Below are positions 3-33,143 of a stretch of DNA of 40,496 nucleotides, in pieces. This DNA is from Gammaproteobacteria bacterium (GTDB lineage: Bacteria; Pseudomonadota; Gammaproteobacteria; GCA-001735895): NCBI GenBank assembly GCA_009937625.1, contig JAACFA010000001.1, positions 1-40,496 on the forward strand. Direction: 5' to 3'. The notes below the pieces were generated by a model. That model saw nothing but the letters and a program-made list of their open reading frames with translations. It ran no database searches and was not told the DNA's origin. Numbering within the stretch: position 1 is the stretch's first letter; the number at the start of each line of letters is the position of its first letter. Position numbers and translations under genes: made by a program.

Positions 3-128
3 ATGACGGGCATGATGGCGCCAATGACCGGCATGATGAACCCGATGACGGGCATGATGGCGCCAATGACCGGCATGATGAACCCGATGACGGGTATGAT
101 GGCGCCGATGACGGGCATGATGAATCCG
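3..128 (+). repeat. 42-bp tandem repeat, 3 copies ([14 protein letters not shown])
   Basis: Copies 3-44 and 45-86 are identical at the DNA level; copy 87-128 has a few synonymous changes. Confidence 0.9.
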
Positions 129-656
129 ATGACGGGTATGATGATGGCGCCGATGGGCATGATGAATCCGATGATGATGGCGCCGATGACCGGGATGATG
201 ATGCCGGGCATGGGGATGCCTGGTATGCCGCCGATGGGTATGATGCCCGGAATGCCCGGAATGCCCGGAATGCCCGGAATGCCCGGAATGCCCGGAATGC
301 CTGGAATGGGAATGCCCGGAATGCCTGGAATGGGAATGCCCGGAATGCCTGGAATGGGAATGCCCGGAATGCCGCCGATGGGCATGATGCCCGGAATGCC
401 CGGAATGCCCGGTACTGGTATGCCGCCTATCGGACCGCAAACCATGCCCGGAATGCCGCCGATGGGTATGATGCCCGGTATGCCGCCAGCGGGCATGATG
501 CCGCCAATGCCCGGCATGGGGGGGAACGCCCCGGGTGCAATGAATCCACAGGGCATCATGGATCCCAAGCAGTACGAGCAGTTTTATAAACAGTGGACCG
601 ACATGATGTCTAAAATGGCTCCATCGGCCGAACCTGAATCCGCTGAAACTCAGTAG
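3..656 (+). CDS. Met/Gly/Pro-rich tandem-repeat protein (5'-truncated by window)
   Basis: Open frame from the window edge to TAG at 654-656; [14 protein letters not shown] and (MPG)n / GMGMPGMP repeats; non-repetitive C-terminus ([37 protein letters not shown]). The true start probably lies upstream of the window. Confidence 0.7.
243..372 (+). repeat. 9-bp (atgcccgga) and 24-bp (atgcccggaatgcctggaatggga) tandem repeats encoding MPG / MPGMPGMG
   Basis: Direct reading of consecutive atgcccgga units followed by three 24-bp units. Confidence 0.85.
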
Positions 657-1076
657 GTGCTCGCGTTGATAAAGCGGTTTATTGCTATAACACTGTTAGC
701 TGCTCTTTTGAGCGCCTGTTCTGGTGTGCCCGGGGACGAGGAAATCGAGATCCTGGTACGTGACAATCTGCTAACCGATGGCCTGGGTGACCTGTTCTCG
801 CTGGAAAGCTTCAACAAAACCAATGGTTTCCGTGAAAGCGATAATGTCTATATCGTCGACGTCGAGTACGATCTCGTGTTCCAGAAGAGCTTTATCGACG
901 TGGTGAAGGAAATTCGCGCCAATCCGACCGGGCCGCAGTACGGCATGTTTGGCTCGAAGCTGGTATTAACGGCGATTCAGTCAAATTTCGGCCAATTCGA
1001 AGTCGGTGACAAGATTCACAAGGTGGAAAAGGTAAGACTCCACCGTACCGAACAAGGCTGGCAGATCGCGAAGTAG
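657..1076 (+). CDS. Putative outer-membrane or periplasmic lipoprotein, unknown function
   Basis: GTG start directly after the previous stop; signal peptide with lipobox LLSAC. Confidence 0.7.
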   Translation: MLALIKRFIAITLLAALLSACSGVPGDEEIEILVRDNLLTDGLGDLFSLESFNKTNGFRESDNVYIVDVEYDLVFQKSFIDVVKEIRANPTGPQYGMFGSKLVLTAIQSNFGQFEVGDKIHKVEKVRLHRTEQGWQIAK

Positions 1077-1138: not shown

Positions 1139-1444
1139 CTAAATGTGCAGGCTATCGCTGGTTTGCGACGTGGCCTGCATGTAACCCAGCATACCCTGCG
1201 CTTCGGCCTCGCGTGCCAGCTTCTCGGCTTCCTCGGCCTTGCCTTCTTTCAGTAATTTCTCCGCCTGCTTGATCATCTTGCCGGTATCGCGCCATTCACC
1301 GCCAACTGAATTGGCCTGCTTCTGGGCTTCTTTGGCGTCGGCGATCGCATCTTCCGCTGCGCCCGCGAATGCCGTCGATGAGAAAACCGCGCCGCTCAGG
1401 GCGATCGATGCGGCCAGCAATGTGGTCTTTAACGTTTTGTTCAT
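1139..1444 (-). CDS. SoxXA-binding protein (SoxK/SAXB)-like small exported protein
   Basis: Signal peptide ending AFA; AAEDAIADAKEAQKQANSVGGEWRDTGKMIKQAEKLLKEGKAEEAEKLAREAEAQGMLGYMQA resembles the SoxXA-binding protein family as remembered; not verified by search. Confidence 0.65.
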   Translation of the reverse strand: MNKTLKTTLLAASIALSGAVFSSTAFAGAAEDAIADAKEAQKQANSVGGEWRDTGKMIKQAEKLLKEGKAEEAEKLAREAEAQGMLGYMQATSQTSDSLHI

Positions 1445-1472
1445 AATGGTAGTTCCTCCTCAAAATAGCTAT

Positions 1473-2561
1473 TTAATCATGAAATGATTCGTAACCCCAG
1501 ATATCGGTATCGAATCCGGATTCTCTGATGTGATCGGCTCGCGCCGAAATGTAACGCTGGAATTCAGGCTCCTGAAGGTACGCCTTTTCCAGCACGTAGG
1601 CGTACACCGATTGAAAATGAAAGGTTTTGAGGAAGCCGTCGATTCGCATGACTTCCTCGCCCGCGGTATCGAAAAACACCAGTGACGGGGTGTAGCCGAT
1701 ACCGAGTTCCTGCGCCCACTGTCGGGCGCCCAGTTTTTTGCCGGCCGGCGTAGTCAGCATCTGGTTCGAGGCAACGTCGAACTGGACGTTGTTGGCCTGC
1801 AGCACCAGTTTGCGCGTCGCCTTGTCCTGTAATATGCGTTGGTGCATGGTCTGACACTCCGCGCAATCGGTCGATTCGAAATAAACCGCCAGCGGCTTGT
1901 CGGAGTTGGCAATTAGCTTGGCGAGATCGCGCTCCTGGAGAAAAAAATCCTCGTCGATCAGCTTGCCGCCGTCCGCGCCCAGCTGCTCCAGGCGATACTG
2001 TGAAAAACTGACGCTGGTTTCGCGTTTTTGCGCGACATATTCGAGCGCTGCGCGGAAATCCTCAGGTGGGTAGTAGCCGTTAAGGCGCAACACGGTCTTG
2101 CCGTTTTCGTCGAGAAATAGGAGGGTCGGGGTGTATTGCACCTTTAGCGCCGCGGCAAAAGTCTTCTCGGTAAAATCCCGGCCCCCGATGCTGACTACCT
2201 CGCGGTCGCCCCACATGTTGAGTGAAATACCGTCGAAATTCTGCTGGATATAAGACCTGAGATCTGGATCGGTAAAGTTTTCCTCCACCAGCCGGGCGCA
2301 GTAGGGGCAGTTCTCCTGGTGAAAGTAAAGCATGACCCGTTTGCCGGAGGCGCTGGCCTCGGCGACATCCTCTTCGAATTCCAGGAAACTTTCCTTGAAC
2401 CATTCCGGCTTCTCGGACGGGATGGCGCCGAAGTATTTTCCAGGTTCGACTGCGCTGGCCGCGGCAGCCTGTAAAGATACTATCAGCACGCACACCCGGG
2501 CCAGGAAACGGCGGCCTGTTACCAACGATACTGTAGGTGCTAGGTAAGTCATAAATATCAA
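1473..2561 (-). CDS. Exported protein with two thioredoxin-fold domains (SoxW-like first domain)
   Basis: First domain YFHQENCPYCARLVEENF...YTPTLLFLDENG; second domain YFESTDCAECQTMHQRI...YTPSLVFFDTAG; N-terminal hydrophobic segment. Confidence 0.75.
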   Translation of the reverse strand: MIFMTYLAPTVSLVTGRRFLARVCVLIVSLQAAAASAVEPGKYFGAIPSEKPEWFKESFLEFEEDVAEASASGKRVMLYFHQENCPYCARLVEENFTDPDLRSYIQQNFDGISLNMWGDREVVSIGGRDFTEKTFAAALKVQYTPTLLFLDENGKTVLRLNGYYPPEDFRAALEYVAQKRETSVSFSQYRLEQLGADGGKLIDEDFFLQERDLAKLIANSDKPLAVYFESTDCAECQTMHQRILQDKATRKLVLQANNVQFDVASNQMLTTPAGKKLGARQWAQELGIGYTPSLVFFDTAGEEVMRIDGFLKTFHFQSVYAYVLEKAYLQEPEFQRYISARADHIRESGFDTDIWGYESFHD

Positions 2562-2818
2562 AGGTGTTAGACCAGGATCTATCGCTCCGGTTCGTGTTAC
2601 GCGGGATTCGGATCGAACAGCCTATCAGATTCAGTGCTTTGATTCATCGGCCTGGCCATCGTCCCCTCGTTTTATTGGTATCAATCCCGATTTAGTTCCA
2701 GATTGTGCAGTTTTGCCCGTAGGTTAGTAAATATCGAATTCTGGATAGAGTCGACGGCAACAAAGGCGCCCGGTTCTCAGTCGTGAAAACTGCTGCCAGG
2801 ATGATTAATGGCAATAAT

Positions 2819-2832
2819 CTGATCTAGATCAA
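2819..2832. promoter_or_regulatory. FNR/ANR-like palindrome CTGAT-CTAG-ATCAA in divergent intergenic region
   Basis: 9/10 match to TTGATnnnnATCAA; possible -10 TAGGAT at 2854-2859 would place the site near -41.5 of a + strand promoter. Confidence 0.4.
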
Positions 2833-2951
2833 ATCCTTTAGCCACTATAGGGATAGGATTTTGCCAATCATATCTAATGTTAGGTATGGGACGATATGGT
2901 ATTTTTTGATTACCTATCGAAACGATAATTATCGACTGGAGAGACACAGCA

Positions 2952-3146
2952 ATGAAGCGCCTGATTCTGGTATTTTTCGTCACTTGCCAAATGATCATTT
3001 CTTCCGCTGCGCTTGCCTGGTCACCGTTGGATGGGGTCGAGGAAGCTATCGATAGCATGCAGAATTGCCTGTTCACCACCGCCAGCAGCGAGCAAAGCCA
3101 GGAAGCTGGAGAAAAGGAACAAGAAGAAGAGCCAGATTGTGAGTAG
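2952..3146 (+). CDS. Small exported protein (64 aa) with acidic tail and two mature Cys
   Basis: GGAGAG upstream of ATG; signal-peptide-like MKRLILVFFVTCQMIISSAALA; mature WSPLDGVEEAIDSMQNCLFTTASSEQSQEAGEKEQEEEPDCE. Confidence 0.55.
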   Translation: MKRLILVFFVTCQMIISSAALAWSPLDGVEEAIDSMQNCLFTTASSEQSQEAGEKEQEEEPDCE

Positions 3147-3197
3147 GGTAAGAGTCACCGTTAAACTAACTGATAAAACCGATCCGGAGGATAAAGA

Positions 3198-3854
3198 ATG
3201 AAATCCCAATTGCTTAAAACCCTGATGCTGAGCACGAGCCTGGTCTGGGCGGGTAACGCCCTGGCGGCCAAACCTGTCGGCATTACCCCCGATATGATGG
3301 ACGCGACCGTCGTGCACGGCGGCAAGTCGGTCAAGATCATGCGCGACCAGAACAACAAGGCGGTCGTCAACCCCGCTTTTGCCAAGACTTCACGGCCCTG
3401 TCCGCCGTTCTGTATTCAGCCGATTGTGCTGGCGCCGGGCGTCGAAACGCTGGGTGAGAACGAAATCATCGATTACCTGGTCAGGATGAGCAACGGCGAC
3501 AAGTCCATACTGGTGGTCGATTCACGCACGCCCGACTGGGTGCAAAAGGGCACAATCCCGGGGGCCGTCAATATTCCCTGGACCGCGCTCAATCCGGCCA
3601 AGGGCGCCGATCCGATATCGATCGGCGAAATCCTGGAAGGCCAGTTCGGCGCGAAATCACTCGAAGGGCTTTGGGATTACAGCGATGCAAAGACCCTGGT
3701 CATGTTCTGCAACGGTATGTGGTGCGGCCAGTCGCCGAACAACATCAAGAACCTGCTCAAGTTCGGCTACCCGGCGCACAAGATCAAGTGGTACCGCGGT
3801 GGTATGCAAAACTGGTCTAACCTGGGTCTGAGCACCGCCAAGCCTGCAAGCTAA
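3198..3854 (+). CDS. Exported rhodanese-like sulfurtransferase
   Basis: GGAGG upstream; signal peptide; rhodanese features ILVVDSRTPDWVQKGTIPGAVNIPW and active-site loop MFCNGMWCGQSPNNIKNLLKFGYPAHKIKWYRGGMQNW. Confidence 0.8.
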   Translation: MKSQLLKTLMLSTSLVWAGNALAAKPVGITPDMMDATVVHGGKSVKIMRDQNNKAVVNPAFAKTSRPCPPFCIQPIVLAPGVETLGENEIIDYLVRMSNGDKSILVVDSRTPDWVQKGTIPGAVNIPWTALNPAKGADPISIGEILEGQFGAKSLEGLWDYSDAKTLVMFCNGMWCGQSPNNIKNLLKFGYPAHKIKWYRGGMQNWSNLGLSTAKPAS

Positions 3855-3929
3855 TTCAGTCTTTCTAATTCCTCAGGGGATTTCATTGGTACAGGGATGT
3901 ACCGGTTTCCCTTTGTGGCGAGCAATTAA

Positions 3930-4397
3930 ATGCGCCGATCCCTGTTAATTCTGTTGCTGGCCGTCTCTTTTTTTAGCGGTCCCGCGGGCGCCGACGCCGT
4001 CACCATGATTGCCGTTGCGGACCTGCGCCAAGAAGCGCGTCTCGCCAGAGCGGGTAATTTGATACTGGTGGTCGAATTCTCCAGCGAGTATTGTGGGTTT
4101 TGCCGCAAGCTGGAGGAACTGTTCCTGCTGCCGATGCAACGCAATGCAGAATACAATGCCAAGGTGCTGATCCGATCTATTTCGCTGGATGCCTATGAAA
4201 CTCTGATCGATTTTGACGGTCGATCAATGAGTACCGGCGAGTTTGCGGAGCGTTACGACGTTTCGCTGACACCGACCCTGCTGTTTCTGAACGCGGACGG
4301 GATCGAGATGAGTGAGAAGCTGGTCGGAATCTGGTCGGAGGATTTTTATGGCGGGTTTATTGACAATCGCATCGACGAGGCGCGGGAAAAGCTCTAG
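3930..4397 (+). CDS. Exported thioredoxin-like protein (SoxS/SoxW-like)
   Basis: Signal peptide; VVEFSSEYCGFCRKLEELFLLP (CxxC) and SLTPTLLFLNADG. Confidence 0.75.
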   Translation: MRRSLLILLLAVSFFSGPAGADAVTMIAVADLRQEARLARAGNLILVVEFSSEYCGFCRKLEELFLLPMQRNAEYNAKVLIRSISLDAYETLIDFDGRSMSTGEFAERYDVSLTPTLLFLNADGIEMSEKLVGIWSEDFYGGFIDNRIDEAREKL

Positions 4398-4902
4398 CCC
4401 CGGGGTTCGAGGTTTATCGCTGCTCAGCAAAACCAGACCCATTGTGGTCGCATTGTTGACGCTGCTGTGGGTCGGCAGCCCGCTGACAGCCCTGGCTAAC
4501 GAGGCTGTCGAACAGCTGCTGGCCCGGTCGGAGGCGCCGGAAGGCGTTGTTTTCGAAATTGTCGAGGGCGACGAAGACGCACTCGAAGCCTTGTTGCCGC
4601 AGGTGCGCACCGCGATCGAGAAAATCCGCGCCCGTTTTCCGCAAACCGAGTTCGCGGTAGTGTCGCACGGTCAGGAAGAGTTTGCGCTGCAGTCGCAATA
4701 CCAGGGAGAATACGCGGAGGTCCATCAGCAGGTGCAGTCGCTGGTGGCCGACGAGGTTCCGGTGCACGTTTGCGAAACGCACGCGGGCTGGTACGGAGTT
4801 AGCGCCGAGGATTTTCCGCAGTACGTGAATGTAGCGCCAACGGGTCCCGGGCAGATCAGGCTTTACGAGGAACTGGGATACGAATTAATCGTGATGGATT
4901 AA
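4348..4902 (+). CDS. DsrE-family-like protein, predicted exported (start uncertain)
   Basis: EGVVFEIVEGDEDALEALLPQVRTAIEKIRARFPQTEFAVVSHGQEEF...VHVCETHAGWYGVSAEDFPQYVNVAPTGPGQIRLYEELGYELIVMD; single conserved-looking Cys; hydrophobic N-terminal segment. Overlaps the upstream CDS, so the true start may lie further downstream. Confidence 0.6.
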   Translation: MAGLLTIASTRRGKSSSPGVRGLSLLSKTRPIVVALLTLLWVGSPLTALANEAVEQLLARSEAPEGVVFEIVEGDEDALEALLPQVRTAIEKIRARFPQTEFAVVSHGQEEFALQSQYQGEYAEVHQQVQSLVADEVPVHVCETHAGWYGVSAEDFPQYVNVAPTGPGQIRLYEELGYELIVMD

Positions 4903-4919: not shown

Positions 4920-5159
4920 ATGCCATATTATCTTTACAAAGTAAGCTCACCCGAAGGGCTCGAGCTGGTCAAGAACCTGGAACTGCTCGAAGTGTTCGAG
5001 GCTTTCCGTGATGCCAAAGCACGGGCCAAGCAGCTGCGCGCGGAGGATGCGGAAAGCGGATTCAGCTACAAGGTCATGTTTGCCGAGAACCAGCTGTCCG
5101 CCGAGGAGCAGTTGCTCGAAAAGCGCGAACAACCGGTGTTGATGGAGCATGAGCGTTAA
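4920..5159 (+). CDS. Small conserved-type hypothetical protein (79 aa)
   Basis: ORF in the same direction between DsrE-like and hydrolase genes, overlapping the next ORF start. Confidence 0.5.
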   Translation: MPYYLYKVSSPEGLELVKNLELLEVFEAFRDAKARAKQLRAEDAESGFSYKVMFAENQLSAEEQLLEKREQPVLMEHER

Positions 5160-5931
5160 GGTCGCGATCCGGGCCGCAGGTTTGGCCCTGGTGTTGGTCG
5201 CCGGGCAGGCCATTGCCTCGGAGCCGGATTTCGAGCGTGAGGCGCGGCTGGCGGATGAAATAGTCGACGCAATTCTCGATGGAGATCCCGAGTGGTTGCA
5301 GGCAGATGGGCGCGATTTCCTGGGGATTTACACCGAGGCGGATGATTCCCGGGCGGCGATCGTGATTCTGCACGGCCGCGGCTTCCATCCCGACTGGGCC
5401 GATGCCATCAATCCGCTGCGGGTGGGGCTGGTCGAGCGCGGCTATACGACCCTGTCCCTGCAAATGCCGGTGCTCGACAAAGAGGCGAAATACTATGACT
5501 ACATCCCGGTCTTTCACCATGCGCACGGCCGTATCGAGGCGGGCATCGCGTTTCTGCGTGAACAGGGACACGAAAAGGTTGTGCTGCTAGCGCATAGCTG
5601 CGGCGTGCATATGGCGCTGGACTGGATCCGGGAAAAGAAAGATAGCAGCATCGATGCCTTTGTCGGCCTCGGTATGGGGGCAACCGATTACAGGCAGCCG
5701 ATGCATCAACCCTTCCCGCTGGACTGGATGCGGGTGCCGGTTCTCGACCTGTATGGCGCAAACGACTATCCCGCGGTAATTCGACTGGCGCCAAGCCGCA
5801 GGGAGATGATCGAAAAGGCCGGGCACAGCGCTTCGCGCCAGGCGGTATTGCCCGATGCGGACCACTATTTCACTAACCAGGGCGAGCCGCTGGTGGCCGC
5901 CGTCGCGGACTGGCTCGATCGATTGGAGTAG
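5149..5931 (+). CDS. DUF3530-like alpha/beta hydrolase, exported
   Basis: AIVILHGRGFHPDWADAINPLRVGLVERGYTTLSLQMPVL; VVLLAHSCGVHMALDWI; signal-peptide-like N-terminus. Confidence 0.7.
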   Translation: MSVKVAIRAAGLALVLVAGQAIASEPDFEREARLADEIVDAILDGDPEWLQADGRDFLGIYTEADDSRAAIVILHGRGFHPDWADAINPLRVGLVERGYTTLSLQMPVLDKEAKYYDYIPVFHHAHGRIEAGIAFLREQGHEKVVLLAHSCGVHMALDWIREKKDSSIDAFVGLGMGATDYRQPMHQPFPLDWMRVPVLDLYGANDYPAVIRLAPSRREMIEKAGHSASRQAVLPDADHYFTNQGEPLVAAVADWLDRLE

Positions 5932-5937
5932 TCCGGG

Positions 5938-6081
5938 ATGAAACTGCCGGACTACCGGATCGGGCTTTTGGCCTACCTGGTCGATCGTCGCGGTGATATT
6001 CTTCAGGCTTACCTCGGAGCACTGGCATGGGATACACCGGAGAACATCGCGATCATCCAGAACCTGCTGGAGCAGGGTTGA
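5938..6081 (+). CDS. Small ORF, 47 aa (MKLPDYRIGLLAYLVDRRGDILQAYLGALAWDTPENIAIIQNLLEQG)
   Basis: ATG 4 nt after the upstream stop codon; its TGA overlaps a TTG that is in frame with the SrkA-like ORF. Below the size cut-off of the supplied ORF track. Confidence 0.4.
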   Translation: MKLPDYRIGLLAYLVDRRGDILQAYLGALAWDTPENIAIIQNLLEQG

Positions 6082-10160: not shown

Positions 10161-11552
10161 TTACTCGTCCTCGCTGCCGCGGTGCATGTCGATCTGGTGA
10201 TTGATGCCTTCTTCCTGTAACAGTTTCTGTATCGCGTTGATGAAACTGGCGGACTGGGAATAGGAGGTATCGCGAAAGCGGATAGTGATCGCCAGTTCAT
10301 CCGGGTCGAGTTGCAGATGGAACTGCCCGGATGGTTTCAGGATCTTGCGAATTTCATTCCAGTCCGAGATGCGGTCGTCGGGCTCCTTGGACAGCGCGCT
10401 TTCGATAAAATCAGCAAGTCCGTCATCGATATCGGCAATATTCTTACGAATATCGGGCGGTTTCTGGCTGACCTGCATCTTCAATAGCTTGCCCAGGGTC
10501 GAGGCGCTGAACGGCAGGCTGTTGGTCAGCATGTGAAACGCCATGACGGCCAGCGCATAAATATCGGCGCGCCCGTCGAGCAAATCCCCGTTGATAATCT
10601 CGGGCGCAATGTAGGACGGTGTGCCCTCGATGTTGACATCCTTGTCCTGCGGCGGGCTCGCGATACCGAAATCGGTGAGCTTGATGTTGCCGTAGGCATC
10701 GACAACGATATTCGAGGGTTTTATATCGCGGTGTACGATACCCTTGTCACCGTGGTTGTGCGCGTACTGCAAAGCGCTTGCGACCTGCGACAGGATCTCT
10801 CGAGTCTCGGCCAGGTCAAGCGCTCCTCGTTCCTTGAGTATCGCGGACAGATCCTGGCCGTGCAGCTTTTCCATGACGATGAAGCGGGTCGAGAATTCGT
10901 CGATGACCTCGAACACGTTGACGATGTTCGGATGGTTGAGACTGGCGATAGTCTTGGCTTCCTGCTCGAAGCGGTCGCGGAACTTGTCGTCGTAAGCGAG
11001 CTTGTATTTCAGCATCTTGATCGCAACTTCGCGCTCCAGCTCCGGATCCCAGGCGTTGAACACGGTGGCCATGTTGCCTTCGCCGAGCTTGCCCCTGAGT
11101 TCGTACCTGCCGACCCGGTTGATACCTCCGTTTTGCGCCATACGGCTGGTCATCAGCTGTGTCATGACCTCGGCGAAATCGGGGTGTCTCTCGATCAGGT
11201 TCTTAAAATGCCCGTGATCCAGGTAAAGCGCGGTAGTGTCGGTCAGCGCGACGATGTCGGCGGAGTAGGTGGAATTGATCAATAGCGAAATTTCGCCGAC
11301 GACTTCGCCCTTCTTGAGCATGATGCGGCGCTTGATATCGCCCTGGTTGTTAGGAATCTGGACTTCTACCTTACCCTCGAAGATGAAGTAAATCCGATTG
11401 CCCATGTGGCCTTTTTCGACCACCATGTCGCCCGACTGGAACTCGGTAATTTCGATGTGTTCGGCGATATCCTCGATCACTTCGACGTCGAGATCCTGCA
11501 GAATCTTGACGCCCGATAGTATTAACACGATTTCGTCGGTATCGATTGACAT
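10161..11552 (-). CDS. Cyclic-nucleotide-binding domain fused to serine/threonine protein kinase
   Basis: N-terminal cNMP-binding-like domain (QSGDMVVEKGHMGNRIYFIFEGKVEV...KKGEVVGEISLL); kinase motifs GKLGEGNMATVF, VAIKML, IVHRDIKPSNIVV, LTDFGIA. Confidence 0.85.
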   Translation of the reverse strand: MSIDTDEIVLILSGVKILQDLDVEVIEDIAEHIEITEFQSGDMVVEKGHMGNRIYFIFEGKVEVQIPNNQGDIKRRIMLKKGEVVGEISLLINSTYSADIVALTDTTALYLDHGHFKNLIERHPDFAEVMTQLMTSRMAQNGGINRVGRYELRGKLGEGNMATVFNAWDPELEREVAIKMLKYKLAYDDKFRDRFEQEAKTIASLNHPNIVNVFEVIDEFSTRFIVMEKLHGQDLSAILKERGALDLAETREILSQVASALQYAHNHGDKGIVHRDIKPSNIVVDAYGNIKLTDFGIASPPQDKDVNIEGTPSYIAPEIINGDLLDGRADIYALAVMAFHMLTNSLPFSASTLGKLLKMQVSQKPPDIRKNIADIDDGLADFIESALSKEPDDRISDWNEIRKILKPSGQFHLQLDPDELAITIRFRDTSYSQSASFINAIQKLLQEEGINHQIDMHRGSEDE

Positions 11553-19808: not shown

Positions 19809-20135
19809 ATGGGCGATTCGTTGAAAGACTTGCTGGAAGCCGAGGCCGAGGCCGAGGCGATCGTCACCGCGGGCGAAAACGAGCGCGATCAAATCATTCA
19901 AAAGGCGCTCGACGATGCGCTGGATATGGAGCGTCAATTCAAGGATCGCCTGCCTGAAATGCAGCAATCGTTTATCGATAAGGCGCAGGAACGCGCGGCG
20001 CAAACCATAGCCGAAATGAAGCTGCGCTACGATGAGCGCAACAAGACGCTGCGTGAGCTCGCCGACAAACACGAAAAGGAAGCGCTGGATCGGGCCATCG
20101 AATTGATTCTGACTGGCGAATCGAAGGTTTCATGA
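19809..20135 (+). CDS. V/A-type ATPase peripheral stalk subunit (G/H-like)
   Basis: Charged coiled-coil protein at the head of the operon (LLEAEAEAEAIVTAGENERDQIIQKALDDA). Confidence 0.65.
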   Translation: MGDSLKDLLEAEAEAEAIVTAGENERDQIIQKALDDALDMERQFKDRLPEMQQSFIDKAQERAAQTIAEMKLRYDERNKTLRELADKHEKEALDRAIELILTGESKVS

Positions 20136-21157
20136 GCGGTTTTTCCAGCGTGTACCTGGACACCCGGCTCACGGTTCTTGCCAGGCGTCTGTTCAGTTTC
20201 GAGCAATTGATCGATTTCATCGAGTTCGACCTCGAACGCATTCTGACGCAGGTCAGGCGACATACCGGCTACGACTATACGGTCGACCATTCCAACCCGC
20301 GATTGATCGAGGGTCAGCTGACTAATCACGCGCTGGACGAGTTCCTGATCCTGATCCGGCCTTTTTCCGGTAGCGAAAGGCGTTTTTTGCAGTTTGCGAT
20401 TCGCTGGTTCGAACTGGTCAATCTCAAGGTTTTGATTCGCGGTAAGTTCAATGCAATCGACAATGACTTGATCGAGAGGCAACTGATCGATTTGCGCAAG
20501 TTCGCCGATTTGCCGATCAAGCAGCTGCTCGAAACCGATGATCCCTATGAAATGTTGCGGCTGCTCGAAACCACGGTCTATGGCGGCATCGTGCGCCCGG
20601 CAAGGCGCATGTACGAGGAACACGGTAATGACCTGTTTCTGCTGGATGCGACCATTGACCGCAGCTTTTTTATCGACCTGCACCATCACGCCCGGTTCCT
20701 GGGCAGGGAGGATGCCAGGAACGTCGGGCAGGTGCTGGGTAACTTGCTGGATCGTTTCAATTTGCTATGGCTGTTGCGCTACCGTTTTTCCTACGGACTG
20801 TCACCGGCAAGATCCTTTTACCTGCTTACCAAGACCGGCAACCGCCTGCATTCGGCGCAATTGCTGCGACTGGCCAGGCTGGATAGCGTCGAGGAAGTCG
20901 TCGCCGAACTGCCCCGGCAGTATCGGCAATTGCTGGCAAGCGTGGGCAGTATCTCTGATATGGAAACGGTGATGGAGTACCACAGCCTGTCGCTTGCCGC
21001 GAAAGCGCTGTACCGGCTCCCCAATCTGCTGTCGCGCACCTTTTCTTATATCGTGCTGCGCGAGGCCGAGGTGCGGTTTTTGCAGGCGCTGATCAAGGGC
21101 AAGCAGCTTGGCTTCGAGAATGATTTGATCAGGCAGGCAGTCGGAGGTCGCGCCTGA
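20132..21157 (+). CDS. atpC: V/A-type ATPase subunit C (AC39 family)
   Basis: V-ATPase AC39-like helical protein in operon; 4-bp overlap with upstream gene. Confidence 0.75.
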   Translation: MSGFSSVYLDTRLTVLARRLFSFEQLIDFIEFDLERILTQVRRHTGYDYTVDHSNPRLIEGQLTNHALDEFLILIRPFSGSERRFLQFAIRWFELVNLKVLIRGKFNAIDNDLIERQLIDLRKFADLPIKQLLETDDPYEMLRLLETTVYGGIVRPARRMYEEHGNDLFLLDATIDRSFFIDLHHHARFLGREDARNVGQVLGNLLDRFNLLWLLRYRFSYGLSPARSFYLLTKTGNRLHSAQLLRLARLDSVEEVVAELPRQYRQLLASVGSISDMETVMEYHSLSLAAKALYRLPNLLSRTFSYIVLREAEVRFLQALIKGKQLGFENDLIRQAVGGRA

Positions 21158-23037
21158 TGTGGTCTGCACCGCAAGAGATGAGCAAGATCGGTTTATACAT
21201 GGTCGACGCCGATGCGCAGAAGGCCGCGATGGCGCTGGCGCGGATGGCGGTGTTGCATCCGTTGCAGGGGCCCGATGGCGAGGCGCTGCCGGAGAACCCC
21301 GCGGCGCCTTACCACGAGGTTTACCATGACCTTAATTCGCGGTTTGGCAAAATTTCCGGCTTTATCCGGAAACCGCTTGGGGCTGCGCCGGAATCGACCG
21401 GGGTGGTAACGCTGGATCGATTACAGGCGCTCGATCAACAGCTGAAAGCACTTTGGGCGCAGATCTCGGCGCTCGAGGAGCAAATTCGTCGACAAAACGA
21501 AAAGATCGCCGCGATCCGGCAACTCGCTAACAGCCTGCAGAAATTCACCTCGCTGGACCTGGACCTGGGTCGATTGCGCCGCCAGGGCAGGTTCCTGCGT
21601 ATTGCCGTCGGCACGATTCCCGCTGAAAACTTCGACCAGCTGCGGCGCGCGCTATCGTTAACGAATTTCCTGATCAAGAGGTTTTATTCGAGTGAGGGCA
21701 TCAATCATGTCGTCCTGTTCGGGCCGAGTCAGCATCGGGAGGAAGTGCAGGATCTGCTGCAATCCGCCGATTTCCGCGGGCTGGCTGTTCCGCAGGAGTT
21801 TAGCGGCAGTCCCACCCAGTTGCAGGCCGACCTCGATCGACAGAGCGGGGAGGCCGAGGCGGGTCTGAAGAGCCAGCAGCAGGAACTATACGATCTGATC
21901 GATGCCAACCTGGAGAGGTTACGACTGGCGCGGGATGCACTGTTGCTGGCGCAGCCTTACGCTAGCCTGGGGACAGTGCTCAAGGGCCGGGGAGGGCTGG
22001 TGTATCTGCAGGGCTGGGTGCCGGCACATCGCCAGGACGAAATCAGGCAACAACTTGCAGGGCATCTGGAGTATCCGTTCCGGCTCGAGTTTTCGGAACC
22101 CGGGCAGCAGGACTTCGATCGGGTGCCGTCGTTGTTGAAAAAATCATGGTTACTGCAGCCATTCCAGGGGCTGGTCAAAAATTTTGGCATGCCGGGTTAC
22201 CGTGAAGTCGATCCCAGCGCTTTGTTCGCGCTCAGTTACTTGCTCATGTTCGGCATGATGTTCGGTGACATCGGTCACGGAGCGGTTATCGCGCTCGCGA
22301 GCCTGCTGTTTGTCCGGTCATACCCTGGCGTCACCATCGTCGGGGTGCTCGCCGGGATGTCATCGATCCTGTTCGGATTTGTTTATGGCAGCCTGTTCGG
22401 TTACGAGCACGTGGTGCCGGCGCTCTGGATGTCGCCGATGCATGATCCGGTGCAGGTACTGGTGCTGGCGGTATTCTGGGGTGCCGGGTTTATCGTGATC
22501 GCCAACCTGCTCGCGATTCGAAATTTTTTCGCCGCGGGGCAGCTCGAACAGGCTTATTTCAGCGGCAAGGGGCTCGCCGGTTTGCTGTTCTACCTGGCAG
22601 CTTTCTACGCTGCCTACCAGGTGGCGGCAAATGGCCGTTTTGGATGGCTGGAGGCCCTGGCGATGACAGCACCGATGGCCGTGATCGTGTATTTTAACTG
22701 GCGCCAGTCCAGTGGCGGGCTGGTCGAACGTATTCTCGTCGTGTTTATCGAGGGGCTCGAGCATATCATCAGCAACGTGTCGGGCACGCTGTCCTTTTTA
22801 CGGGTTGCGGCCTTTAGCCTGAACCATATCGCCCTGGCCGCGGCGGTTTTCGCCATCGCCGGTATGCTGGGCAACTTTGGTCACGGGCTTACGGTCGTGC
22901 TGGGCAATATCTTTATCATCGTGCTGGAGGGTGCCATCGTTGCCATCCAGTGTTTACGGCTCGAGTACTACGAAGGTTTTTCTCGTTTCTTCAACGGCAA
23001 GGGACGGGCGTTCGAGCCTCTGAAATTAGAAACTTAA
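21157..23037 (+). CDS. atpI: V/A-type ATPase subunit I (a subunit)
   Basis: GYREVDPSALFALSYLLMFGMMFGDIGHGAVIAL; ISNVSGTLSFLRVAAFSLNHIAL; QCLRLEYYEGFSRFFNGKGRAFEPLKL. Confidence 0.9.
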   Translation: MWSAPQEMSKIGLYMVDADAQKAAMALARMAVLHPLQGPDGEALPENPAAPYHEVYHDLNSRFGKISGFIRKPLGAAPESTGVVTLDRLQALDQQLKALWAQISALEEQIRRQNEKIAAIRQLANSLQKFTSLDLDLGRLRRQGRFLRIAVGTIPAENFDQLRRALSLTNFLIKRFYSSEGINHVVLFGPSQHREEVQDLLQSADFRGLAVPQEFSGSPTQLQADLDRQSGEAEAGLKSQQQELYDLIDANLERLRLARDALLLAQPYASLGTVLKGRGGLVYLQGWVPAHRQDEIRQQLAGHLEYPFRLEFSEPGQQDFDRVPSLLKKSWLLQPFQGLVKNFGMPGYREVDPSALFALSYLLMFGMMFGDIGHGAVIALASLLFVRSYPGVTIVGVLAGMSSILFGFVYGSLFGYEHVVPALWMSPMHDPVQVLVLAVFWGAGFIVIANLLAIRNFFAAGQLEQAYFSGKGLAGLLFYLAAFYAAYQVAANGRFGWLEALAMTAPMAVIVYFNWRQSSGGLVERILVVFIEGLEHIISNVSGTLSFLRVAAFSLNHIALAAAVFAIAGMLGNFGHGLTVVLGNIFIIVLEGAIVAIQCLRLEYYEGFSRFFNGKGRAFEPLKLET

Positions 23038-23061
23038 ATCAATGGATAATCGGAGCATACC

Positions 23062-23508
23062 ATGACGATTTTGACTTTCCTGCTGAGCGCGAGTGCGCTG
23101 GGTATCTTGTTATCCGGGATCTACTTCATGATTTATCCCGAGTCCGCCCATCGGCTGACGCCACGCTGGATGAAAACCGGCGTTGCAGTCAATCTACTAC
23201 TGTTTGTCCTGGGTATTGGCGCCTTCCTGATCGGTGGCGTCAACGAAGTCATGGCGGCGGAGACTGGTACGGAGGGTAATACCGAGATTAGCCTGGGGCT
23301 CGGGCTGGCGTTGATCGGTATCGGCCTGCCGACCGCGTTGGCGACGATTGGGGCCGGTATCGCGGTAAGTTCGGTGGGATCCGCGTCGCTTGCCGTAATC
23401 GCCGAGAAGCCGGAACTGTTCGGCCGCACCCTGATTTACCTGGGGCTGGCCGAGGGTATCGCCATTTACGGGCTGGTGGTCAGTATCCTGTTGCTGGGCA
23501 AAATTTGA
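23062..23508 (+). CDS. atpK: V/A-type ATPase rotor subunit K (c-type)
   Basis: ALATIGAGIAVSSVGSASLAVIAEKPELFGRTLIYLGLAEGIAIYGLVVSILLLGKI; carboxylate in AEG; N-terminal hydrophobic extension. Confidence 0.9.
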   Translation: MTILTFLLSASALGILLSGIYFMIYPESAHRLTPRWMKTGVAVNLLLFVLGIGAFLIGGVNEVMAAETGTEGNTEISLGLGLALIGIGLPTALATIGAGIAVSSVGSASLAVIAEKPELFGRTLIYLGLAEGIAIYGLVVSILLLGKI

Positions 23509-23834
23509 TGAAGATCATCGCCATCGGCAACTCGGCCCTGATGGATGGCTTCGCGCTGCTCGGCATCGAGACCTACGCCGACGCGAGTGCCGATGAAATC
23601 AATGCCGTGCTTACCGACTTGGTGCACGAGCGCGAGCGGGCGCTGGTTTACCTGCAACAGGATTTGATAAGTGCCGAGATACCGATGATTCAGCATTTGC
23701 GCATCAAGGGCGGCTCGATTCTGATCTGTGAAATTCCCGATCTGCAGACAGCGAACGATTACCAGCCGGAGGTCGAAAAACTGATTGGACGGGTGCTCGG
23801 CAGCTCGGCGCTGGAGGGTCAGATTGGCCACTGA
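23505..23834 (+). CDS. atpF: V/A-type ATPase subunit F
   Basis: MKIIAIGNSALMDGFALLGIETYADASADEINAVLTDLVHERERALVYLQQDL at the expected operon position. Confidence 0.75.
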   Translation: MMKIIAIGNSALMDGFALLGIETYADASADEINAVLTDLVHERERALVYLQQDLISAEIPMIQHLRIKGGSILICEIPDLQTANDYQPEVEKLIGRVLGSSALEGQIGH

Positions 23835-24480
23835 ATCGGAACAGGTCAGGGCGCTGCAGCAGGCGATTCTCGAGCGCGCGAAAGAGCTCGCGGCCGAGCA
23901 TGTGTCACAGGGTGAGATGACGCGCGGCAAAATCATCGAGGATGCGCGCGAGAAGGTAAAACTGATGGAGCAGAAGGAATTACTGGCTGCCAGGCTGCAG
24001 GCCGATCGTGAGTATCAACGGCAGGTGCAGGCCAACGAATTACGCATCCAGGCCGAGCTCGATCGCAACCGTTGGGGCCTGGTGCAATCGGTGATGGACA
24101 AGATTTCGCGCCAGCTGGTAGAACTGCACCAGGACGATGCCGCCTACCGGCCGGTATTCGAGAGTCTGCTGAAAAATGGCGTCGCCAGTCTCGGACTCAA
24201 GCAGCTGGTAGCGACGCTCGGCAATGACGACCTGTCTCGGTTTCATGACGATTGGGCTGCGATCGTCGAAGCCTGCTGCGGCGACAAGGTTGAAGTCAAA
24301 CTGTCGCCCGAAGCCTGCCACTGCAGCGGTGGCCTCCGGCTGGCGTCGAAGCAGGGCGACGTCATGATCGACAATACCTTCGAAGGCATCATATCGCGGC
24401 GCGGGGAAGTACTGCAGCAGCTGATTTTCGAGCGCCTGTTTTCCACCGTGTCGACCAAGGGAACCGTATTCGATGGGTAA
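23824..24480 (+). CDS. atpE: V/A-type ATPase subunit E
   Basis: Long helical stalk protein; TTG start at 23824 overlapping the end of atpF proposed instead of 23785. Confidence 0.7.
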   Translation: MATESEQVRALQQAILERAKELAAEHVSQGEMTRGKIIEDAREKVKLMEQKELLAARLQADREYQRQVQANELRIQAELDRNRWGLVQSVMDKISRQLVELHQDDAAYRPVFESLLKNGVASLGLKQLVATLGNDDLSRFHDDWAAIVEACCGDKVEVKLSPEACHCSGGLRLASKQGDVMIDNTFEGIISRRGEVLQQLIFERLFSTVSTKGTVFDG

Positions 24481-26254
24481 GGTGCTGGAAGTCAACGGCC
24501 CGATCGTAACGATTCAGCAGCCGGGAATTCGCAACGGCGACCAGGTCAAAATCGGCCGCATGAACCTGATTGGCGAAGTAATCCATATCCGCGCCCAGGA
24601 CGCGCTGGTTCAGGTCTACGAGTCGACCGAGTCCTTGCACCCCGGCGAGCGGGTCGAGGGCCTCGGGCATCCGTTGACGGTCGAGCTCGGGCCCGGACTG
24701 CTGGGACAAATCTTCGATGGCGTGCAGCGCCCGCTCGACAAGATCATGCAGTTGAGCGGCGAGCATATCAGCCGTGGGCTGGAGGTATCCGCGCTCGATC
24801 GGGAGCGCGTCTGGCACTACCTGCCGGATCCCGAGATTGTCGTCGGCAATAGGCTCCGCGGGGGCCAGGTGCTGGGTACGGTGCGCGAAACCGAGACCAT
24901 AGAGCACCGCGTGCTTGCGCCACCGGACTGCAACGGTGAAATCATCGAACATGCGCCCGAGGGCGATTACAACATCGAGGAAATCATCGTACGCCTGCGT
25001 CTTGATCACGGCCCGGTCGAAAGCCTCAGAATGTATCACGACTGGCCGGTGCGTCAGCCGCGGCCCTACCGCTCGCGCGCCAGCTCCGGGCTACCGTTGA
25101 TCACCGGGCAGCGCATCCTCGATACTTTTTTTCCGATGCTGAAAGGCGGCAAGGCGGCGGTCCCCGGGCCCTTTGGTGCGGGCAAGACCATCGTGCAGCA
25201 ACAAATCGCGCGCTGGGCCAATGCGGATATCGTGCTTTACGTCGGCTGCGGCGAACGCGGAAACGAGCTGGTCGAAATATTGCAGACCTTTCCAGAGCTG
25301 ACCGACCCCTATAGCGGACGCTCGCTGATGGAACGTACGTTCCTGGTTGCCAACACGTCGAATATGCCGGTGGTCGCGCGCGAGGCCAGCATTTACGTCG
25401 GCGTCACGATGGCGGAGTACTACCGCGACCAGGGTTACGACGTGGTCATGGTGGCAGATTCGACCAGCCGCTGGGCCGAGGCGCTGCGCGAAGTTGCGGG
25501 ACGCCTCGGGCAGATGCCGGTGGAAGAGGGTTATCCGGCCTACCTGGCTTCTCGTCTGGCGGCTTTTTACGAGCGCGCCGGCAATGTCAATACGCTCGCC
25601 GGTGCGCAGGGTTCGGTGAGCCTGATCGGCGCGGTATCGCCGCCAGGCGGCGATTTTTCGGAGCCGGTGACGAGCCACACCAAGGAGATAATCCGCACCT
25701 TCTGGGCGCTGTCGAAACCGCTGGCGGATGCGCGCCATTACCCGGCGGTATCCTGGCTCGAAAGCTTCACCGATTACTCGGAGCGTGCGGCGGAGTGGTG
25801 GTCCGAGAACGTCAGCCCGCAATGGAGCCTGCGGCGCCAGCAGGCGCTGTCGTTGCTGGCGGAGGCCGATGAACTCGAGCGAATCGTCAACCTGGTGGGC
25901 CCTGAGGCGCTGTCTTCGTCGCAGCGCTGGGTGCTGGAAAGCTCGAGCCTGATCAAGGAGGCGGTGCTGCAGCAGAGCGCGCTCGATCCGGTCGATAGTT
26001 ACTGTTCACCCGACAAACAGTTTCAGCTGCTCGACCTGGTGCTGCAGTATCACCGGACCGGAGCAGAATTGATCGACCTCGGGGTGCCGGTCGAGCAGCT
26101 GACCGAACTCGTTTTCGGCGGCGAAATCAGACGCCTCAAGTCGACCGTCTCGAATGACGATCTGTCTCCATTTCAGGACTATGGCAACAAGATACGCCAG
26201 GCTTTCGATTTGATGCGTGCCGAGTACCACAATCACCGCGGAGCTGCCTCATGA
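24473..26254 (+). CDS. atpA: V/A-type ATPase catalytic subunit A
   Basis: P-loop [58 protein letters not shown]; 593 aa. Confidence 0.95.
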
Positions 26255-27633
26255 GTGAACTCGAGTATCGCAAGGTCGATTCGATTCACGGCGCCCTGAT
26301 GTTCCTCAAGGGAGTCGGGGATGTGGCGCTGGGCGATCGCGTTCAGATTCGCGGCAAGGACGGCAGGCGGCGTAACGGGCAGGTCATCCGGACATCCCGC
26401 GACGTCGTGCTGGTACAGGTGTTCGAGGGAACCGATAATCTCGACCTGGAAAACACCTGGGTGCGTTTTCTCGATCAACCGTTCGAACTAGCGTTGTCGC
26501 CCGATATGCTGGGACGCAACTTCAACGGCATCGGCGCGCCGCGCGACGACAGGCCGCCGCTCGTTTCCAGCCTGCGCCGCAACGTCAACGGTTCGCCGGT
26601 CAACCCGGCCGCGCGCGCCTACCCGCGCGAGTTTATTCAGACCGGGATTTCCACCATCGATGGCCTCAACTCGCTAGTGCGTGGACAGAAACTGCCGGTT
26701 TTCTCGGGCTCCGGGCTGCCGCATAACCGACTGGCGGCGCAGATCGTACGCCAGGCGAGATTGCCTGGCGATAGCTCTAACTTCGTTATCGTGTTCGCGG
26801 CGATGGGAGTGTCGTATTCGGACGCGCGCTTCTTCGAGCAGGAGTTCGAGTCCAGCGGCGTGTTGCGTAATGTTGTCATGTTCATCAACCTGGCCAACGA
26901 TCCGCCGATGGAACGCCTGATTCTTCCGCGCACCGCGCTGACCGCTGCCGAGTATTTGGCTTACGAACTCGATCATCATGTGCTGGTGGTCATTACCGAC
27001 ATGACCAACTATGCCGAGGCGCTGCGCGAAGTTGCGACCGAGAAGGGTGATGTACCGTCGAGGAAAGGTTACCCGGGTTATCTCTATTCGGACCTGGCCG
27101 AAATTTACGAGCGTGCCGGGCGGCTGCGCGATCGCCACGGCTCGATCACGATGATACCGATCCTGTCGATGCCGAGCGACGATATCACCCATCCGATTCC
27201 GGATCTGAGTGGTTACATTACCGAGGGGCAAATCGTGTTGAGCCGTGAGTTGCACAGCAAGGCGGTTTATCCGCCAGTCAACGTGCCGCCTTCGTTATCG
27301 CGCCTGATGAAAGACGGGATCGGCAAGGACGATACGCGAGAGGATCATCCACGCGCGGCCAGTCAGCTGTATGCTTCCTACACTCGAGCGCTGGAGGCAA
27401 GAAACCTGGCTTCGATCATCGGTGCCGAAGAACTTTCGGATCGCGATCGCCGCTACCTCGATTTTGCCAATCGTTTCGAGGAAGATTTCGTGCGACAGGG
27501 ACCCGACGAGGAACGTAACATCATCGAAACCCTGGACCTGGCCTGGGAGCTTTTGTCATTGCTGCCGCCGGGTGAGTTAAGCCGCGTCAGCGAGGAAGAT
27601 CTGCATAAGTATCATAGCTGGGAAGAGCACTAG
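26251..27633 (+). CDS. atpB: V/A-type ATPase regulatory subunit B
   Basis: [67 protein letters not shown]; 460 aa. Confidence 0.95.
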   Translation: MSELEYRKVDSIHGALMFLKGVGDVALGDRVQIRGKDGRRRNGQVIRTSRDVVLVQVFEGTDNLDLENTWVRFLDQPFELALSPDMLGRNFNGIGAPRDDRPPLVSSLRRNVNGSPVNPAARAYPREFIQTGISTIDGLNSLVRGQKLPVFSGSGLPHNRLAAQIVRQARLPGDSSNFVIVFAAMGVSYSDARFFEQEFESSGVLRNVVMFINLANDPPMERLILPRTALTAAEYLAYELDHHVLVVITDMTNYAEALREVATEKGDVPSRKGYPGYLYSDLAEIYERAGRLRDRHGSITMIPILSMPSDDITHPIPDLSGYITEGQIVLSRELHSKAVYPPVNVPPSLSRLMKDGIGKDDTREDHPRAASQLYASYTRALEARNLASIIGAEELSDRDRRYLDFANRFEEDFVRQGPDEERNIIETLDLAWELLSLLPPGELSRVSEEDLHKYHSWEEH

Positions 27634-28247
27634 TGCAGGATCGGCTCAACATACCGCCGACCAAGAGCTCGTTGCTCGACCTCAAGCGCAGGCTGGAGTT
27701 TCTCAACGAGGGTTACCGCCTGCTCGAGCGCAAGCGCGAACTGTTGACGCGCCTGGTCTATGAGAAACTGGCCGAGTACCGGCAGATGAGCCGGTCGACG
27801 CGTGCAGCGATGACCACCGCCTATCGCTGGCTCAGCATTACCCAGATGCGCATGGGAAGCCATCGAATCCAGCAACTGGCGATCGGCATGCCGCAGGCGG
27901 TGGAAGCAAACGTGCTGCCGCGACAGAATATGAGCGTGCAGTATCCGTCGGTAGAAATCAAAAAACTGCCGCTGTTGCCGGTCGGTATTCTGGCTACCGA
28001 CGCCAGCCTGGACGAAACCCGTTCCACCTTTGCCGACATGATCGTCCGTGCAGCGCAGCTGGCCGAGGTCGAGACCGCTCTCTGGCGCCTGCTGGAGGAA
28101 CAGCGCAAAACCCAGAAGCGGGTCAACGCCCTCAGGTATAACGTGATTCCGCGCTACGAGCGCACTATCAGCTATGTCGAATCGGCGCTCGAGGAGGAAG
28201 AGCGTAACACGCTGTTTCAGCTCAAGGTGCTGGGGGAGCGGAGCTAG
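27633..28247 (+). CDS. atpD: V/A-type ATPase subunit D
   Basis: GTG start overlapping atpB stop; PPTKSSLLDLKRRLEFLNEGYRLLERKRELL...RRVNALRYN-type motif (KRVNALRYNVIPRYERTISYVESALEEEERNTLFQLKVL). Confidence 0.9.
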   Translation: MQDRLNIPPTKSSLLDLKRRLEFLNEGYRLLERKRELLTRLVYEKLAEYRQMSRSTRAAMTTAYRWLSITQMRMGSHRIQQLAIGMPQAVEANVLPRQNMSVQYPSVEIKKLPLLPVGILATDASLDETRSTFADMIVRAAQLAEVETALWRLLEEQRKTQKRVNALRYNVIPRYERTISYVESALEEEERNTLFQLKVLGERS

Positions 28248-28423: not shown

Positions 28424-28458
28424 TTGTGTACCTTAACTCCACCCGCGAGGACCATCAA

Positions 28459-29202
28459 ATGGTCAGCAAAAAAAGCTCCAAAGCCACGCAAAAGCCTTCC
28501 GGTTTAAAAAAGTTGAAGACGGGTATCACGTCGACCGCCTCGTCGGTGACGGAAGATATCGATAAAGCCAGGGAAGTCGTTTTACGCGAGTTGCGCGAAG
28601 CGTTCGAAGCCGTAAGCAATAAAGCCAGGGCCGCGAGCGATACGGCGAACGATGTGTCCTCACACCTCAAATCTTCGATAGCGGGAACCGCTTCTGATGC
28701 CAGCGAGTCGGTAAAGGAAACGATCGCGGAAGCGCATATTGCTGACACCTTTCGCAAACTCACCGACGAAGTCGAAGAGGCCGCCGAGGAAGTGATCGAG
28801 GGCATTAGCAAGCGATTCAATCAGCTGCGCGAAGCCGCGGCCAAAAAGATTCAGCCCGAAAAAGCTACTGGTAAGAAGAAGGTGGCGGTCAAGAAGAAGG
28901 CTGCGGCCAAGAAGAAGGTGGCGGTGAAGACGAAGGCTGCGGGGAAGAAGAAGGCTGCGGTGAAGAAGAAGGCTGCGGTGAAGACGAAGGCTGCGGTCAA
29001 GAAGAAGGCTGCGGTCAAGAAGAAGGCTGCGGTCAAGAAGAAGGCTGCGGTCAAGAAGAAGGCTGCGGTCAAGAAGAAGGTGGTGGTGAAGAAGAAGGCT
29101 GCGGTCAAGAAGCAGGTGGTGGTGAAGAAGAAGGCTGCGGCGAAGAAGAAGGCTGCGCCAAAGAAAAACACTCCCAGGAAAGCACCGGTAAAGAAAAAAT
29201 AG
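28459..29202 (+). CDS. Lys/Ala-repeat DNA-binding-type protein (histone H1/AlgP-like C-terminal tail)
   Basis: Helical N-terminal region followed by about 110 aa of KKKAAVKKKAAVK repeats; start trimmed from 28426. Confidence 0.75.
   Translation: MVSKKSSKATQKPSGLKKLKTGITSTASSVTEDIDKAREVVLRELREAFEAVSNKARAASDTANDVSSHLKSSIAGTASDASESVKETIAEAHIADTFRKLTDEVEEAAEEVIEGISKRFNQLREAAAKKIQPEKATGKKKVAVKKKAAAKKKVAVKTKAAGKKKAAVKKKAAVKTKAAVKKKAAVKKKAAVKKKAAVKKKAAVKKKVVVKKKAAVKKQVVVKKKAAAKKKAAPKKNTPRKAPVKKK
28869..29165 (+). repeat. 18-bp degenerate tandem repeat (gtcaagaagaaggctgcg), coding AAVKKK
   Basis: Direct reading; several consecutive exact units around 28997-29070. Confidence 0.85.
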
Positions 29203-32672: not shown

Positions 32673-33143
32673 TCAGGACTTGCCGTAGTAGATGGCGTCG
32701 AAGGTTTTGGCGCTGAAGCCGTTCATACGCTGGTCCCCGATCAGGATGACAGGCACCCCGCGGCCGCGCAGTTTCTTGTATTCCCTGGCCGCAGTTTCGG
32801 ACTTCTCGATATCGTGCTCGGTGAAAGGAATATTGTTCTTGCGGAAGTGCCGTGCCGCTTTCTTGCAGTAGCCGCACCAGCTGGTCGAATACATCGCGAC
32901 GGATTTGGATTTCTGGCGCCCGGTAACCAGGCTCGAATCGTAGACGAACGGCTCTACGCTGACCGAGGTGAAGCTGCTGACGCTACCGGTGATTTCTTTG
33001 AGTTTGGCTTTGTCGGGCGGGCTGTCGCCGTAATGAATCCTGCCACTCTCGTCGACCCACTTGTATAGCTCGCCCTGGGTAACCGGGCTGAGAAACATCA
33101 AAACGAGCAACAGGCTCGTGACAGGCAGTGACAGTTTTTTCAT
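32673..33143 (-). CDS. DUF4124 plus glutaredoxin-domain exported protein
   Basis: Signal peptide; GELYKWVDESGRIHYGDSPP (DUF4124-like) and VAMYSTSWCGYCKKAARHFRKNNIPFTEHDIE...GVPVILIGDQRMNGF (glutaredoxin). Confidence 0.85.
   Translation of the reverse strand: MKKLSLPVTSLLLVLMFLSPVTQGELYKWVDESGRIHYGDSPPDKAKLKEITGSVSSFTSVSVEPFVYDSSLVTGRQKSKSVAMYSTSWCGYCKKAARHFRKNNIPFTEHDIEKSETAAREYKKLRGRGVPVILIGDQRMNGFSAKTFDAIYYGKS

Follow-up and report, generated by a model that had tools for sequence, protein, structure and literature searches.

Six consecutive genes for small exported proteins lie near the start of the window, the 40,496-nucleotide stretch of DNA analysed here, which makes up all of contig C124 in a draft gammaproteobacterial genome (G000; 3.78 Mb, 93% complete; G numbers denote the genomes compared, G000 being the window's own genome, C numbers contigs and L numbers loci). 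Two of the genes are on the reverse strand and encode a SoxK-like (SoxXA-binding-like) protein of 101 amino acids (1139-1444) and a tandem thioredoxin-fold protein of 362 amino acids (1473-2561); the other four are on the forward strand and encode an acidic peptide of 64 amino acids (2952-3146), a single-domain SoxL-type rhodanese of 218 amino acids (3198-3854), a single thioredoxin-fold protein of 155 amino acids with a CGFC motif (3930-4397), and a DsrE-fold protein (4348-4902; annotated as 4312-4902, 196 amino acids). Signal peptides and export were assessed by eye from the N-terminal sequences. In related genomes this block is linked to soxXYZA, soxB, tusA, dsrE2, and dsrA, and we propose, with a probability of about 0.6, that it forms the accessory part of an island combining a truncated Sox pathway (no SoxCD) with reverse Dsr, serving as a periplasmic relay for sulfane sulfur and in the regeneration of SoxY.

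The open reading frames bear out the order and coordinates of the six genes in the original prediction, a reading of the DNA letters without database searches, and its rhodanese and two thioredoxin calls passed Pfam profile searches, with PF00581 at 2.4e-12 for the rhodanese and PF13098 (Thioredoxin_2) at 1.8e-40, in two stretches, for the tandem protein and at 5.4e-9 for the single one. The tandem protein carries CPYC and CAEC motifs whose four cysteines are all invariant among aligned orthologues, and its profile matches a DsbC entry in the PDB (2e-13); both cysteines of the CGFC motif are likewise invariant in the orthologue alignment of the single protein, and an alignment of 13 orthologues of the acidic peptide reveals two conserved cysteines, one mid-chain and one C-terminal. 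In some relatives a gene for a SoxH-like metallo-hydrolase (L033:6570-7547), not found in the window, adjoins the tandem thioredoxin gene. A scan for promoters and terminators gave no signal above chance.

Linkage of the block to sox and dsr genes

The relatives that carry the block are marine gammaproteobacterial drafts, found by scanning genomes with the window rhodanese. The same arrangement is kept in many relatives of one genus, far above chance; the synteny on which the original prediction had been staked is conserved across this genus. On the longer contigs of relatives, the block is immediately preceded on its upstream side by soxX, soxY, soxZ, soxA, tusA, dsrE2, and a fadL-like gene, tusA-dsrE2 standing right after soxA; in an NCBIfam scan of these genes, from which the fadL-like gene was left out, the sox and dsrE2 genes score above their curated cut-offs and TusA below its own. 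The SoxK-like gene itself adjoins soxX at four loci (L033, L134, L212, and L213). Both soxA and dsrA are on the rhodanese contig in G002, G003, G004, G026, and G030, with soxB also present on that contig in G002, G003, and G030, and the whole gene set is carried by G002 and G003. One stretch in each of G005 and G014 holds soxA-Z-Y-X, soxK, and the tandem thioredoxin, thioredoxin-like, and DsrE-like genes.

The original prediction had also pointed out that no sox genes are visible in the window, and had suggested a module able to function independently of a classical sox operon. That suggestion is unsupported, the block in relatives being beside soxXYZA-tusA-dsrE2 in an island with dsrA and soxB; the observation itself is true of the window, but is best read as a contig-end effect. 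Bases 1-511 are a methionine-codon-rich tandem repeat (detected with Tandem Repeats Finder) inside which the contig begins, and which belongs to the 3' end of a gene for a methionine-rich exported protein (3-656, forward strand), recognized from the repeat arrays, from fuller copies at L206 and L209, and from alignment to G002; full-length relatives of this protein have a haem-type C[VI]ECH motif ahead of the repeats. By blastn, the contigs C54, C332, and C124 (the window) of the window's genome are collinear on contig C187 of G002, where the end of C332 and base 3 of the window are 11.5 kb apart, and the G002 stretch matching this gap holds soxX-Y-Z-A-tusA-dsrE2-fadL. We read the lack of sox genes as a contig end because related assemblies break at the same repeat or in a run of N: in G006 the module contig starts, and the soxXYZA-tusA-dsrE2-fadL contig ends, in the same methionine-rich repeat, while in G029 the region upstream of the module is a run of 6,189 N. 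G029 had been a candidate for a single-contig module without soxA and was ruled out as such by this run. A caution follows for draft genomes generally, in which gene absences can be repeat-induced contig ends.

Elsewhere in the window's genome, where the original prediction had proposed a search for sox and dsr genes, a full-length dsrA was found, as was a soxB split across C54 and C332, but not soxC, and not soxXYZA anywhere in the assembly; a Pfam search for SoxY gave no match, but its controls also gave none, so that it is uninformative alone. Taken as a candidate truncated Sox system, the genome thus has soxB on two contigs, no soxC found, and soxXYZA falling in the assembly gap. Because soxXYZA was not recovered in this assembly, nor soxA in the close relatives G016 and G023, we infer rather than observe that the species has soxXYZA. 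A true loss in this subclade, to which the lack of a detected soxA in all three genomes (G000, G016, and G023) would correspond, is not favoured, since the missing stretch is flanked by a contig end on either side and the window's own end sits in a tandem repeat.

The SoxK-like protein and the SoxL-type rhodanese

The SoxK-like call survives at the level of the family, with a significant match to the NCBIfam model SAXB (NF052674; 2.9e-20), but at 72.7 bits the protein is under the curated cut-off of 95 bits, and for this reason we name it SoxK-like and do not file it as SAXB. The cut-off is strict, being attained in just 4 of 369 gammaproteobacterial genomes; at the same time, matches to SAXB include LysM-type relatives outside sox loci, so that a match alone is no evidence of Sox. 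Compared with dedicated profiles, the window protein scores 92 bits against sox-linked SoxK versus 72 bits against relatives from non-sox loci, which are mostly of the LysM type.

The family of the window rhodanese has an invariant CPPFC motif (residues 68-72) and an active-site-type loop, CNGMWC (171-176), whose Cys171 is invariant across 14 aligned homologues. The window protein is 48-51% identical to rhodaneses that are encoded behind soxX-soxA-soxK or are fused to SoxK: the order soxX-soxA-soxK-rhodanese is seen at L191 (among the genomes scanned with the SAXB model), and at L179:1501-2463 (G127) and L183:1465-2436 (G240) a single open reading frame behind soxX-soxA comprises a SoxK domain and a rhodanese. 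The locus L129 of G037 has the order soxXYZA-soxK-rhodanese-soxB. Motifs, identity to these homologues, soxX-A-K gene order, and SoxK fusions together indicate that the window rhodanese is of the SoxL type, and the fusions tie it to SoxXA; its predicted export follows from N-termini that by eye resemble signal peptides. A search of the PDB with the rhodanese profile gave no match. The window's genome holds a second copy of the exported rhodanese (G000:C284:8078-8566; L124), and in many relatives rhodanese paralogues are found between lolC/lolD-like and mfd-like genes (L035, L078, and L098), a conserved context outside sox loci.

The known system closest to this arrangement is that of Allochromatium vinosum, in whose soxXAKL cluster SoxK binds SoxXA and SoxL is a rhodanese, proposed to replace SoxCD by accepting the sulfane sulfur of SoxY (PMC3368242, PMC5573963, PMC4136832). 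The likeness lies in a SoxK-like protein and an exported rhodanese encoded in a sox island without soxC, in a setting of truncated Sox plus Dsr. Unlike in A. vinosum, the soxK-like and rhodanese genes of the window do not stand next to each other but belong to divergent operons, and the block adds genes for the tandem thioredoxin, the single thioredoxin, the exported DsrE-like protein, and the small cysteine-containing peptide.

An exported family with the DsrE fold

The DsrE-like call fails for the window protein alone, which gives 0.057 and 14.0 bits against PF02635 (0.024 and 15.3 bits for the mature part) where the Pfam gathering score is 22.7 bits, but it holds for the family, since a search of 26 homologues gives matches to PF02635 in 23 (E up to 0.1; best 7.2e-7) and the AlphaFold model of the mature protein has the DsrE fold with a predicted local distance difference test (pLDDT) score of 97.2. 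The score was 54 with a shallow, genus-only alignment and 97 with 20 distant homologues added. The leading PDB matches of the model are of the DsrE/DsrF type (1l1s, 2pd2, 2qs7, 3pnx, 1jx7, and DsrEFH 2hy5). One cysteine is invariant in the family, Cys92 (mature numbering) in a VHVC motif, and hhalign places it opposite Cys78 of the true, cytoplasmic DsrE of the same genome (C332:18443-18835); the overall alignment is weak, and the link to DsrE therefore rests on the fold, the family-level Pfam matches, and the position of the cysteine.

The gene overlaps that for the thioredoxin-like protein, and its annotated GTG start at 4312 is doubtful; translation more probably begins at the ATG at 4348 or further downstream, and the mature part is encoded from about 4498. 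A hydrophobic N-terminal segment is common to the family (the window copy was trimmed in this test), and the signal-peptide-like N-terminus suggests that the protein is probably periplasmic. It is like DsrE and DsrEFH in its fold (2hy5, 1jx7, 2qs7, and 3pnx) and in the position of its cysteine, and unlike DsrEFH in its sequence, which is only weakly similar, in its export-type N-terminus, and in being encoded by a single gene without adjoining F and H genes, the last two of which place it outside DsrEFH. DsrE2 and TusA, encoded outside the window, are families separate from it.

A profile built from the genus orthologues finds this DsrE-like family in 38 of 230 gammaproteobacterial genomes, the 38 spanning 32 families, and an association with SoxB is evident: SoxB is encoded in 35 of the 38, compared with 63 of the 192 genomes without the family (Fisher p 4e-12, uncorrected for phylogeny). 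A related exported DsrE family (hhalign 3e-14; PF02635 1.1e-13) is encoded directly after SoxL-like rhodaneses at L042, L051, L059, L062, and L085. This distribution bears on the view that the block is a free-standing periplasmic sulfur relay or repair module independent of Sox, for which one could cite the window without a sox core gene, the soxXYZA genes missing from the assembly, and the many other genomes whose DsrE-like homologues are not located near sox genes. Given the direct linkage of the block to soxXYZA, tusA, and dsrE2 in relatives, an assembly gap exactly at that place, and the frequency of SoxB, such independence is very improbable, and we reject it on the collinearity with G002 and the sox linkage in relatives.

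Another reading would have the DsrE-like protein handle sulfide or polysulfide together with exported rhodaneses and persulfide-responsive regulators, the sox linkage in the genus being secondary. It draws on L160, L164, L169, and L174, where the neighbourhood of the DsrE-like gene includes genes for an exported rhodanese of two domains and a regulator resembling Rrf2 (identified by eye) and no sox genes were seen in the stretch; the respective genomes (G210, G077, G185, and G036), however, all encode SoxB, as do nearly all others with the family, and we consider this reading improbable. A broader suggestion, which we make tentatively and at somewhat less than even odds, is that the exported DsrE-fold family is a general and overlooked component of gammaproteobacterial Sox, a periplasmic carrier of persulfide that might lead sulfur from SoxY, either directly or via SoxL or another exported rhodanese, toward import into the cytoplasm. 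A literature search, mostly without subscription papers, turned up no mention of a DsrE family of exported proteins at Sox loci.

Proposed role and neighbouring genes

The idea of a periplasmic sulfur-relay or repair module stands in the original prediction's general form, and we infer the chemistry, order, and direction of its sulfur transfers as follows. SoxK would aid SoxX and SoxA in loading thiosulfate onto SoxY, SoxB would remove sulfate, and the remaining sulfane sulfur could pass from SoxY to the SoxL-type rhodanese; the exported DsrE-like protein may then ferry it through the periplasm as a cysteine persulfide, while the thioredoxin-fold proteins, with their three CxxC motifs, would act on SoxY, the rhodanese, and the carrier, either freeing their sulfur or reducing them again. 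From there the sulfur would go to storage, or to import and the cytoplasmic DsrE2, TusA, and reverse Dsr. Several points weigh against this relay besides the soxXYZA genes missing from the assembly and the soxA missing from G016 and G023: the test of SoxB co-occurrence ignores phylogeny; the G005 block has no rhodanese in it; G037, with its soxK-rhodanese-soxB order, also carries soxC, so that having a SoxL-type rhodanese does not strictly exclude SoxCD; and among SoxB genomes the DsrE-like and SoxL-type families are unassociated (13 with both, p 0.68). Since there is no preferential co-occurrence within SoxB genomes, a fixed hand-over from SoxL to the DsrE-like protein is not general, and a general pairing of the two was rejected.

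The strongest competitor to the relay is redox maintenance, in which the thioredoxin-fold proteins and the rhodanese would keep the carrier cysteine of SoxY and other periplasmic thiols reduced, in the manner of SoxS or SoxW, and the DsrE-like protein would scavenge persulfide with no obligatory step in a relay. The block does contain two thioredoxin-fold proteins with three domains and three CxxC motifs, and SoxY is a target of the Paracoccus protein SoxS (as cited in PMC11582611). Relatives encode an additional redoxin of the AhpC/TlpA type, full length (about 430-440 amino acids; AhpC-TSA 3.8e-20) at L031, L033, and L212, of which the window retains a 47-amino-acid remnant (5938-6081, forward strand; matched at L141:3085-3228), the gene being apparently decayed in this and some sister species. 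With SoxS and SoxW the window proteins share the thioredoxin fold, a CxxC motif, export, and a gene position in a sox locus, and unlike them one is a tandem two-domain protein; neither NCBIfam nor the solved structures yielded a named SoxS or SoxW match, and no solved SoxS structure matched within E 0.01, the presence of SoxS in the searched PDB set being unchecked. Redox maintenance does not account for the association of SoxB with an exported DsrE-fold protein that has an invariant cysteine, nor for the recurrence of such proteins beside SoxL-like rhodaneses, and we regard this alternative as unlikely.

For Hyphomicrobium denitrificans, whose Sox system lacks SoxCD, the route of SoxY-bound sulfur into the cytoplasm has been described as unknown (PMC11582611). 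The locus, which many gammaproteobacteria of marine sediments and symbioses carry, provides concrete exported candidates for the exit of sulfur from SoxY, namely the SoxL-type rhodanese, the thioredoxin-fold proteins, and the SoxB-tracking DsrE-fold family with its one invariant cysteine; its main interest lies in this family and in the SoxK-SoxL fusion.

The conserved run of genes is longer than the six. A small putative lipoprotein gene (657-1076, forward strand), recognized as an open reading frame and by synteny, forms a conserved flank of the module on one side, and on the other the run is extended by two forward-strand genes conserved alongside it, one for a 79-amino-acid protein (4920-5159) to which Pfam assigned no family and in which no signal peptide was seen, and one for an exported alpha/beta-hydrolase-like DUF3530 protein (5149-5931; PF12048 1e-25). 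Further along the window are a protein that seems to combine a cyclic-nucleotide-binding domain with a Ser/Thr kinase (10161-11552), genes that by eye resemble a V/A-type ATPase operon (20132-28247), which is odd for a gammaproteobacterium, a protein with a long, histone-like tail of repeats rich in Lys and Ala (28426-29202), and a protein, probably exported, that has a CGYC domain of glutaredoxin-like type (32673-33143).

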